The notes beneath the pieces were generated by a model. The model saw nothing but the letters and a program-made list of their open reading frames with translations. It did no database searches and was not told the DNA's origin. The position numbers were made by a program, and so were the translations under genes. From positions 1-36,584 of the forward strand of contig JABWBQ010000029.1 in NCBI GenBank assembly GCA_013360395.1: a stretch of 36,584 nucleotides of DNA. The letters run 5' to 3'. This document shows positions 26,841-30,004 of the stretch, piece after piece. Position 1 is the stretch's first letter, and each line of letters begins with the position of its first letter. This DNA comes from Flavobacteriales bacterium. Lineage in GTDB: Bacteria > Bacteroidota > Bacteroidia > Flavobacteriales_F > PHOS-HE28.

Positions 26841-27338
26841 TCACCAGGGGCGGAACCGCCGCACCATCACGTGGTCGTCCATCACGAAGCCACCGCCGAT
26901 GTCAAGCACCTCGTCGCGCTCTACGGTGAAGCCGTGGCGCTCGTAGAACGCCTTGGCCGGGTTCCGTTTGTTCACGTTCAGTTCCACGGCTGCATCCCCG
27001 GCTTTCATGCAGGCCATCAGCACGGCTTCGAGCAGGGCATGCCCCACGCCTGTTCCCTTCACCCCGGGCAGCACGTACAGCTTGTGCAGGCGGGAGCGCC
27101 CCGGCTTGTACGCGTGCTCCACCGCGGCGAACCCGACGGCCCTGTCGCCCTGTATGGCGAGCGTGAAACGATGGCCCTCCGCGAACCGGGCCTGAAGCGC
27201 CGCCGTGCTGTACATGAGGTCCAGCATGTAGGCGATCTGCGCGGTGGTGATGATGCCCGCATAGGCCACGGGCCAGGTGTCCCGGGCGATGCCCTGGATC
27301 AACGGAATGTCCGCCGGAACGGCCTCGACGAGGGTCAC
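26841..27338 (-). CDS. GNAT family N-acetyltransferase
   Basis: A 165-residue GNAT acetyltransferase. The fold is recognisable from the N-terminal VEAVPADIPLIQGIARDTW, the central strand LAIQGDRAVGFAAVEHAY, the acetyl-CoA pyrophosphate loop LHKLYVLPGVKGTGVGHALL (85-103, R/K-x-x-G-x-G type) and the late VELNVNKRNPAKAFYERHGF. Substrate unknown; neighbours do not reveal it. The start is GTG 27338, whose bases overlap the TGA of the upstream dehydrogenase gene (GTGA), implying coupled translation. Non-ATG starts here and at the GT9 gene occur only in such overlaps. Confidence 0.88.
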   Translation of the reverse strand: MTLVEAVPADIPLIQGIARDTWPVAYAGIITTAQIAYMLDLMYSTAALQARFAEGHRFTLAIQGDRAVGFAAVEHAYKPGRSRLHKLYVLPGVKGTGVGHALLEAVLMACMKAGDAAVELNVNKRNPAKAFYERHGFTVERDEVLDIGGGFVMDDHVMVRRFRPW

Positions 27339-28222
27339 TTCGCGAAGGCGGGAGCCACCACCAGGTCCTTGCTGCCGCCGCTGTACGTGTAGAAGCCCTC
27401 GCCGCTCTTCACGCCCAGCTTGCCCGCGGTCACCATCTGCACCAGCAGCGGGCAGGGGGCGTACTTGGGGTTGCCGAAGCCTTCGTGCAGCACCCTGAGG
27501 ATGGCCAGGCAGGTGTCCAGCCCGATGAAATCGGCCAGCTGCAACGGACCCATGGGGTGGGCCATGCCGAGCTTCATCACCGTATCGATCTCGGCCACAC
27601 CACCGATGCCCTGGAACAGTGTCTCGATGGCCTCGTTGATCATGGGCATCAGGATGCGGTTGGAGACGAAGCCCGCCTGGTCGTTGACCTCCACGGGCAC
27701 CTTGCCGATGGCGCGGCTCAGGTCCATGATCCTGGCGGTCACCACATCGGTGGTGCTGTAGCCCCGGATCACTTCCACCAGCTTCATCACGGGCACGGGG
27801 TTCATGAAGTGCATGCCGATCACCTCCCCGGGACGTCGGGTCGCGGCGGCGATGCGGGTGATGCTGATGCTGCTGGTGTTGGTGGCCAAGATGCATCCCG
27901 CCGGGGCGCCGGCGTCGATGTCCTGGAAGATCTTGAGCTTGAGGTCCACGTTCTCGGTGGCGGCCTCCACCACGAGTTCGGCGTTCTTCACCCCGGAGGA
28001 CAGTTCGGTGGCCGTGGTGATGCGGCCGAGCGCGGCCTGCTTGTGGTCCTCGGTGAGGCCGCCCTTGGCCACCTGGCGGTCCATGTTGCGGGCGATGGTG
28101 GCGAGGGCCTTGTCCAAGCGGTCCTGGGCGATGTCGATCAGGGTGACCGTATGGCCGCCTTGGGCGAACACATGGGCGATGCCGTTGCCCATCTGGCCAG
28201 CACCGATAACGGAGATGTTCAT
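27335..28222 (-). CDS. hbd: 3-hydroxybutyryl-CoA dehydrogenase
   Basis: An NAD(P)-dependent enzyme interconverting acetoacetyl-CoA and 3-hydroxybutyryl-CoA in fatty-acid or butyrate metabolism. The 295-residue protein has the Rossmann motif ISVIGAGQMGNGIAHVFAQGG (GxGxxG at 7-12) and the full catalytic set at standard positions: Ser117/118 in NTSSIS, His138 and Glu150 in HFMNPVPVMKLVE, and Asn188 in GFVSNRI. The C-terminal dimerisation domain includes HPMGPLQLADFIGLDT. ATG 28222 is fixed by the N-terminal strand. Its predicted promoter (28243-28276) touches the heptamer array. Coupled to the GNAT gene. Confidence 0.96.
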   Translation of the reverse strand: MNISVIGAGQMGNGIAHVFAQGGHTVTLIDIAQDRLDKALATIARNMDRQVAKGGLTEDHKQAALGRITTATELSSGVKNAELVVEAATENVDLKLKIFQDIDAGAPAGCILATNTSSISITRIAAATRRPGEVIGMHFMNPVPVMKLVEVIRGYSTTDVVTARIMDLSRAIGKVPVEVNDQAGFVSNRILMPMINEAIETLFQGIGGVAEIDTVMKLGMAHPMGPLQLADFIGLDTCLAILRVLHEGFGNPKYAPCPLLVQMVTAGKLGVKSGEGFYTYSGGSKDLVVAPAFAK

Positions 28223-28242: not shown

Positions 28243-28276
28243 CGAATGTAGGTCGTAGGTTTCCTCCGGCTTCAAG
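28243..28276 (-). promoter_or_regulatory. Predicted promoter of hbd (TTG-N22-TACATTCG)
   Basis: On the minus strand a TTG (28274-28276) is separated by 22 nt from TACATTCG (28243-28250), within the 17-23 nt spacing reported for Bacteroidota promoters. The box is 20 nt before the hbd ATG. The -33 triplet lies inside the first units of the heptamer array. Confidence 0.5.
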
Positions 28277-28569
28277 ACACCGGCCTCCGGCCTCCAGCTT
28301 CCAGCTTCCAGCTTCCAGCCACCAGCCTCCAGCTTCCGGCCTCCAGCTTCCGGCTTCCAGCTTCCGGCTTCCAGCTTCCGGCTTCCAACCTCCAGCCACC
28401 AACCTCCGGCTTCCAGCTTCCAGCCACCAGCCACCAGCTTCCGGCCTCCGGCTTTCAACTTTCAGCTTTCAGCTTTCGGCGTTGGCCTCCAGCTTCCGGC
28501 CTCCGGCTTTCAGCCTCCAGCTTCCGGCTTCCGGCTTCCGGCATCCAGCCTCCAGCCTCCAGCTTTCAG
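28264..28569. repeat. Heptanucleotide tandem repeat array, 44 units
   Basis: 306 nt made of 42 heptamers and two hexamers (at 28320-28325 and about 28480-28485), read by hand. The plus-strand consensus is CYTCCRG: CTTCCAG, CTTCCGG, CCTCCAG and CCTCCGG dominate, with CTTTCAG, CCACCAG and CATCCAG variants. Nearly all differences are transitions at positions 2, 4 and 6. The pyrimidine-rich strand is the plus strand. Units alternate irregularly, as expected from repeated slippage or unequal exchange plus point mutation. No spacer-repeat structure, so not CRISPR. Confidence 0.95.
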
Positions 28570-28588: not shown

Positions 28589-30004
28589 TCATTTCCCGTC
28601 GCCCTTGAGCATGATGATCACGGTGTAGGCCAGGATCTTGAGGTCCACCGCGAGGCTCATGTTCTCGATGTAGAGGATGTCGTACTTGAGCCGGCGCACC
28701 ATCTGGTCCACGTTCTCGGCGTAGCCGAACTTCACCTGGCCCCAGCTGGTGATGCCGGGCCGCACTTTGTGCAGGTGCCGGTAGTGCGGGGCCACTTCCA
28801 TGATCCGGTCGATGAAGTAGCGGCGTTCGGGACGCGGCCCCACCAGGCTCATATCGCCCTTGAGCACGTTCCAGAACTGGGGCAGCTCGTCCAGTCGGGC
28901 CCGGCGCAGAAAGCGGCCGATGGGGGTGATGCGCGGGTCGGTGGAACTGCTGAGCTGCGGGCCGGCCTGCTCGGCATCGGCGTACATGCTGCGGAACTTG
29001 ATGATGCGGAACGGCCTGCCGAAGCGGCCGATGCGCTCCTGGCGGAAGAACACCGGCCCCGGGCTCGAGGTGCGCACCAGCACGGCCAGTACCAGGAACA
29101 GGGGGGAGAGCAACACCAGGGCGAACGCGCTGAACACGATGTCGAACAGCCGTTTGAGGGCGAACTGCCAGGCCGGCATGATCTGCGGGTTCACCTCGAT
29201 CAGCGGCGCGCCGAAGATGCTGGTCATCTTCACGCTGCCGGCCATGATGTCGTACATGTCGGGGATGACCTTGATGCGCACGTTGGTGCCCTCCAGTTCG
29301 TTGATGATGCGGCTGATGTGCTCGTGCTCGCTGCTCTCCACGGCGATGATGGCCTCCTCCACGCCGTGAGCGTCGATCGCGCGCCGCAGTTCGGTCCAAC
29401 GCCCCAGGCACGGAAGCCCCGCGGCACCCAGCTGCTGGTCGCCGCCGTTCACGCTCACGAAGCCCACGAAGCGGTTGCCCGGGCTCTTGCGCATGCCCTC
29501 GATCTCGTGGTGGATGGCCACCGCCCGCTCATTGCCGCCCACCAGCACGGTGTTGAACCCGATCCGCCGGTCGTGCACCATGCGCACCGTGCGGCTGGTG
29601 AGCAGGAAGCGCGGCAGCAGCGTGAGCCCGAAATGCAGGCCGAAAAGCACGGCGAACGAACGTGCCAGGTAGGTGGCGTCCGGCACCTGGTCGTCCAGCA
29701 ACAGCACGAAGAAGATCACCACCACCCCGATCAGGCTGATCAGTAGCGTCTGCCCCAGCTCCTTGGTCCGGTGCCGCCGGAAGATGTCCGAATAGCCACC
29801 GATCATGGTGTACAGGCCCAGCCAGAACAACGGCACCGCGAACAGGCCGATCGCGTAGTTGCGGTCCAGCTCCACGGGTACGGCGTAGCCGAAGGTCAGC
29901 GGCTCCAGGACCTTCTTGCGGTACAGGTAGAACAGGGTCCACGCCGTGGCGGCCGACAGCAGGTCGGAGATCACGTAGAGGCTTACCTGGGTCCGTCGGT
30001 CCAT
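28589..30004 (-). CDS. Polyprenyl glycosylphosphotransferase (initiating sugar transferase)
   Basis: A 471-residue WbaP/WcaJ-type enzyme that would transfer a sugar-1-phosphate to undecaprenyl phosphate and start a surface polysaccharide. About four N-terminal helices lie at roughly 10-28, 50-68, 84-103 and 113-130. A Rossmann-like domain follows at about 150-255 (FNTVLVGGNERAVAIHHEIEG). A membrane helix after FALKRLFDIVFSAFALVLLS leads into the catalytic Bac_transf domain with KFRSMYADAE, the RRARLDELPQFWNVLKGDMS segment, VGPRPERRYF and a terminal PGITSWGQV. Last gene of the Gfo/Idh-lipoprotein-transferase operon, 9 nt after the lipoprotein stop. Which sugar is used is not visible. Confidence 0.95.
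   Translation of the reverse strand: MDRRTQVSLYVISDLLSAATAWTLFYLYRKKVLEPLTFGYAVPVELDRNYAIGLFAVPLFWLGLYTMIGGYSDIFRRHRTKELGQTLLISLIGVVVIFFVLLLDDQVPDATYLARSFAVLFGLHFGLTLLPRFLLTSRTVRMVHDRRIGFNTVLVGGNERAVAIHHEIEGMRKSPGNRFVGFVSVNGGDQQLGAAGLPCLGRWTELRRAIDAHGVEEAIIAVESSEHEHISRIINELEGTNVRIKVIPDMYDIMAGSVKMTSIFGAPLIEVNPQIMPAWQFALKRLFDIVFSAFALVLLSPLFLVLAVLVRTSSPGPVFFRQERIGRFGRPFRIIKFRSMYADAEQAGPQLSSSTDPRITPIGRFLRRARLDELPQFWNVLKGDMSLVGPRPERRYFIDRIMEVAPHYRHLHKVRPGITSWGQVKFGYAENVDQMVRRLKYDILYIENMSLAVDLKILAYTVIIMLKGDGK

Follow-up and report, generated by a model that had tools for sequence, protein, structure and literature searches.

What is a long array of CYTCCRG heptanucleotides doing between hbd and a sugar transferase gene of a Flavobacteriales bacterium, how did it get there, and does it act on its neighbors? 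We addressed these questions starting from a single stretch of DNA of 36,584 nt, hereafter the window, in which the array and the flanking features are located as listed in Table 1. That the array is real is clear. Its 44 units, as counted in the initial annotation, give a lag-7 identity of 0.78 versus a mean of 0.31 in a Markov null (sd 0.03, max 0.41; 2000 order-1 resamples), while other 270-bp stretches of the window reach at most 0.38, and TRF scores the array at 239 with 39.7 copies. Unit positions 1 and 5 are nearly invariant, and positions 2 (T24/C18) and 6 (A27/G16) each alternate between two bases. The variation consists mostly of transitions (80% of lag-7 differences) and the strands are asymmetric, with pyrimidines representing 69% of plus-strand bases, both as first described. 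Two details needed correction. The first base of the array is 28263, one to the left of 28264 where it had been placed, and there is one 6-nt slip (CGTTGG) rather than two, all other units being 7 nt long; the second slip had appeared because the parse began at 28264, inside the first CCTCCGG. An assembly artefact was considered and is unlikely because degenerate units, unique flanks, and syntenic neighbors surround the array, which lies inside a 36.6-kb contig.

Table 1. Features in and around the hbd gap of the window, and loci carrying the promoter-like module in other bacteria
Feature	Position or locus	Strand	Remark
CYTCCRG heptanucleotide array, 44 units	28263..28569	+	pyrimidine-rich on plus strand
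CTTTCRR units ending in CGTTGG	28452..28485	+	one higher-order repeat boundary
6-nt junction unit CGTTGG	28480..28485	+	same junction kind in 10/16 arrays of the genome
hbd, 3-hydroxyacyl-CoA dehydrogenase	27335..28222	-	PF02737 and PF00725; array upstream
Bacterial sugar transferase	28589..30004	-	PF02397; array just beyond its stop
TACATTCG, -7-like putative promoter element of hbd	28243..28250	-	similar sequence in congeners without array
TCTTG within array, -33 candidate of the initial annotation	28273..28277	-	22-nt spacing to -7-like element
Halomonas module	L114, L136, L148, L164, L169, L182, L190, L194, L215 and others		
Pseudomonas module	L120, L186, L204, L217		

The array is one of many in its own genome (G000; other G-numbers likewise denote genomes of the genus). 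A strict three-unit CYTCCRG pattern matches 59 times on the forward and 49 times on the reverse strand, that is, 108 matches against none for the reversed-pattern control, and a looser four-unit pattern adds loci on contigs C23 and C40. G000 carries at least 16 arrays, in both orientations, which bears out the suggestion that they form a dispersed family. Gene calls around the 16 arrays that we examined, made with a home-made codon-usage caller, assign 11 of them to gaps between tandem genes (6 same-strand, 5 opposite-strand), 4 to gaps between convergent genes, and 1 to a gap whose divergent genes are weakly called. No array lies inside a called gene, although one overlaps the end of its neighbor by 8 bp. 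This absence from genes could reflect selection for an intergenic function as well as purging. We also looked for a conserved insertion flank and rejected it, the 5' flanks in G000 having only CCTCAAG-type units in common.

In the window, the array fills the gap from ~20 bp past the sugar transferase stop to ~40 bp before the start of hbd, whose identity is confirmed by its 3-hydroxyacyl-CoA dehydrogenase domains. Judging from the Bacteroidota consensus, TACATTCG, 12 bp outside the array, may be a promoter element of hbd. The -33 and -7 elements of Bacteroidota promoters are usually 19–21 nt apart. The initial annotation had the hbd promoter overlapping the array, and there is indeed a TTG inside it, but the case is weaker than claimed since this TTG is 22 nt from TACATTCG. 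No sigma70-like promoter or terminator-like site was found at the window array. We searched for hbd in 45 genomes of the genus and fetched 30 loci. The sugar transferase adjoins hbd in all but two of these (L046 and L059); in the others, with the exception of G000, the gap is short and devoid of a CYTCCRG array. In G064 (L045), the gap contains a different tract, with CTTGAAG/GGCTCAAG-type units and inverted parts. A TACnTTnGCC sequence, similar to TACATTCG, precedes hbd in congeners, usually without any array. Promoter context as a conserved function, proposed at the outset, is not supported by this comparison, since nearly all congeners have no array there yet keep the -7-like sequence.

A cis-regulatory element of hbd, which would supply a -33 box or a length-tunable promoter context, thus seems quite unlikely. 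While 12 bp separate the start of the array from a conserved -7-like element downstream, and the array does include a TTG, that element is retained where the array is absent, the spacing is 22 nt, other arrays adjoin unrelated genes, and 4 of the 16 sit between convergent genes, a setting in which one would not expect a promoter. We found no support for a role in gene control; most likely, the array does no more than change the sequence context upstream of hbd. As a side observation, several congeners (for example, L052 and L053) have a GC-rich palindrome (e.g., GGGCGCGAGATCTCGCGCCC) between the sugar transferase stop and the -7-like element of hbd; it is possibly a terminator and is absent in G000.

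When the units of the G000 arrays are sorted into classes A (CYTCAAG), B (CYTCCRG), C (CTTTCRR), and D (the 6-nt CNTTGG), arrays read as a run of B, a run of C, one D, and then B again, C again, and D again. This higher-order repeat, [CYTCCRG]n-[CTTTCRR]m-CNTTGG, is common to 10 of the 16 arrays. Its D junction occurs 30 times in these 10 arrays, preceded by a C-class unit in 29 cases and followed by B in all 30, while a direct return from C to B without D is seen 8 times. A units tend toward the 5' end of the array (mean relative position 0.22). Since 10 sites that are not linked to one another have this specific 6-nt junction in common, we infer that tracts were probably copied between unlinked loci rather than born independently.

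Relatives were compared at one genome per species. The gap between pyrH and frr measures 740 bp in G000 and is mostly array (~640 bp); in both G008 and G025 it is 124 bp and contains ~5 units of the CYTCCRG family, and in the sister genome G026 no CYTCCRG units were evident at this gap. Flank comparison identified older shared array sites, C90a with G026, C94 with G008, G025, and G033, and C23 with G008 and G025. Because the G000 arrays at these three sites have no D junction, the D-bearing arrays appear to have expanded later, within the lineage of G000, with two D-bearing sites, hbd and pyrH-frr, compared directly in relatives. Several other congeners display unrelated heptamer arms between pyrH and frr (GTACAGA, GTTGTCA/TTA, and AACTACG types; L297, L299–L302, L305, L306, and L308), some of them as inverted pairs. 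Such inverted arm pairs could act as terminator-like hairpins.

These arms, with their potential for hairpins, together with the finding that most G000 arrays start or stop within a few tens of nucleotides of a called gene end, raise the possibility that arrays are transcript 3'-end or hairpin elements (terminators or REP/BIME-like sequences) shaping mRNA 3' ends. We regard this as unlikely. The arrays of G000 are single-armed, 14 of 16 being without opposite-orientation units within 800 bp (C94a/b, ~780 bp apart, is the sole opposite-orientation pair), and the paired inverted arms forming a stable hairpin that typify REP/BIME elements were not found. The RNA of the window gap folds unremarkably (z 0.10), and the window array has no recognizable terminator-like site.

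A structural role for the DNA itself, as a G-quadruplex, H-DNA, or a platform for nucleoid proteins, appears highly improbable. It would be in keeping with the strong purine/pyrimidine asymmetry and with the G4 formed by heptamers of Xanthomonas and Nostoc (PMC4692102). However, the runs of at least three G in each period that characterize G4-forming GGGNATC-type repeats are absent from either strand, the pyrimidine fraction is only 69%, and the strands fold no better than shuffles (z -0.8 and -0.4). G4 and H-DNA were rejected in view of the absent G3 runs and the mixed strands, and a stable strand structure was rejected with all folding z-scores near zero (-0.8, -0.4, and 0.1). Least credible of all is an RNA sponge, in which transcripts of the purine strand would titrate CsrA through a GGA every 7 nt. 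On the strand that is read in the direction of hbd, GGA does recur with the period of the array, but CsrA (PF02599) was not found in the genome by a search for which E. coli, B. subtilis, and T. maritima were positive controls.

How widespread is the family? Within the genus, strict CYTCCRG matches occur in G000, G008, G025, G026, and G033, with a single further match in G018. A tree built from hbd and frr groups G025, G008, G026, and G000 in one nested set and G013 and G023 as sisters; G033 lay outside this tree. The family is thus confined to the clade formed by G025, G008, G026, and G000 plus the unplaced G033, bar the single G018 match. Other genomes of the genus have heptamer dialects of their own: GTACMGR is found only in G013 and G023, GTTGTYM mainly in G004, G031, G032, G023, and G013, and MMCTAYR mainly in G020, G006, G002, G032, and G004, with reversed-pattern controls nearly always zero. 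Of 395 Bacteroidota genomes sampled across the phylum, 2 contain a four-unit CYTCCRG pattern, counting G000. The idea of a family dispersed in Bacteroidota stands for the genome itself but not phylum-wide, and within the genus the arrays belong to one clade.

Taken together, these data favor a reading, to which we assign a probability of about 0.68, in which the array is noncoding satellite-like DNA of a clade-specific heptanucleotide family, grown by slippage, spread by tract copying, and probably without sequence-specific function. Among the three roles proposed initially, slippage is the best supported, as judged from unit-number differences at orthologous gaps. These differences suggest that arrays lengthen and shorten by slipped-strand replication in a 7-nt register. 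Tracts carrying the [CYTCCRG]n-[CTTTCRR]m-CNTTGG motif would be copied between unlinked intergenic sites by a homologous or template-switch route, as the shared 6-nt junction indicates, and arrays would persist where they do little harm, mostly near gene ends. The hbd array would then have arrived recently, at a site where relatives have a short gap.

The satellite-like array is a variant of a known heptanucleotide kind, represented by cyanobacterial STRRs, the GGGNATC repeats of Xanthomonas, and TAACTGA arrays. As in dispersed bacterial arrays of the LSSR/STRR kind, we find tandem 7-nt units far above chance, many dispersed and mainly intergenic copies (16 arrays, 0 inside called genes), and unit numbers differing between relatives at one site (pyrH-frr, C90a, and C94). 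An excess of heptanucleotides in bacteria, for which polymerase slippage was proposed, was noted by Mrazek 2007, as summarized in PMC4679880 and PMC4692102; since then it has been without a settled explanation. The long simple sequence repeats of that study, with 5–11-nt units, share the heptanucleotide excess, but in these summaries they are a statistical class, while the arrays here form a family whose members share junctions and whose units are specific to a clade. Among periods up to 11, period 7 also ranks first or ties for first in our samples, accounting for 3 of 3 arrays in Bacteroidota, 8 of 11 in array-rich non-Bacteroidota (picked for carrying CYTCCRG arrays), 4 of 10 in G000, and 5 of 12 in G004 and G024, these being small numbers from sampled stretches with arrays of at least 3.4 copies.

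Among repeats of a similar kind, the one studied most thoroughly is GGGNATC in Xanthomonas and Nostoc (Rehm et al. 2015, PMC4692102), which has G runs, forms G4, and prefers four units. Like our arrays, it has a 7-nt unit dispersed over the genome on both strands, is intergenic (~90% in Xanthomonas), near gene ends and rare between divergent genes, and varies in unit number between species. Unlike it, our arrays lack G3 runs, reach ~90 units, show a higher-order repeat, and are shared between species at some sites and not at others, whereas GGGNATC sites are mostly kept between two Xanthomonas species. Cyanobacterial STRRs are likewise tandem heptanucleotide arrays, with three heptanucleotides in Calothrix PCC 7601 (cited in PMC4692102) and ttgtcagttgtcagttgtca in 44 genome copies in Nostoc PCC 7120 (PMC2408588). 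The latter is the GTTGTCA dialect of the genus; the unit of our family differs from those of STRRs, for which the excerpts of these sources describe no higher-order repeat. TAACTGA direct repeats of Beggiatoaceae, Cyanobacteria, and Bacteroidetes (MacGregor 2015, PMC4679880) are also intergenic heptamer arrays, sporadic over distant phyla and with up to 43 copies, but in the Beggiatoaceae genome that was analyzed they are mostly short and directly precede start codons, and related heptamers are rarely repeated. Our literature search returned no relevant match for CTTCCAG strings and none for WKLEAGSW, a translated repeat mentioned in the initial annotation. In the open literature (subscription journals were outside the search), we found no description of the higher-order pattern, of dialect turnover at fixed gaps, or of the cross-phylum heptamer class.

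That last aspect emerged from a scan of species genomes, which returned at least 118 stretches with four CYTCCRG units (L108–L225). By record title, the matches listed span about twelve phyla and include Gemmatimonadota, Acidobacteriota, Chloroflexota, Streptomyces, and Planctomycetota; in 18 genomes among them, CYTCCRG counts range from 2 to 449 with all reversed controls at 0. In Halomonas and some Pseudomonas relatives (Table 1), the array directly follows a dispersed module made up of purine-oriented heptamers, TTGAC, ~17 nt, and CATGCTG or AACGCTG, in this order. An exact TTGAC lies at most 45 nt upstream of 20 of the 57 gammaproteobacterial arrays among the matches listed, versus a chance rate of 0.036, and the strict TTGAC-CATGCTG module is present in up to 12 copies per Halomonas genome, with controls at zero. 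By its sequence, this module looks like a candidate sigma70 promoter that would direct transcription into the array; inverted heptamer arms surround it. A TTGAC-N17-CATGCTG module was not found before the arrays of G000, whose 5' flanks differ from one another.

That unit types follow a fixed polar order, and that one heptamer class turns up again in many phyla, goes beyond what plain slippage predicts. All heptamer arrays might be a single phylum-crossing satellite class, produced by a dedicated or conserved process working in 7-nt steps with a restricted vocabulary (CYTCCRG, GTTGTCA/TAACTGA, and AACTAYG), in which one dialect replaces another between clades at given intergenic sites and arrays travel behind a mobile promoter module in Halomonas and Pseudomonas; we consider this a rather improbable extension. 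The same heptamer in distant phyla is a puzzle now open to survey. The genus offers a natural series in which the same gene gaps, in ~40 species, are empty or hold a few to ~90 units of clade dialects, and it thereby allows direct tests of how satellite arrays in bacteria arise, spread, and turn over. Finally, at one ancestral array site, a small ORF (L020, 4383–4736) lies between two oppositely oriented arrays and, judged by eye, resembles a four-helix-bundle protein of the 23S rRNA intervening-sequence type.
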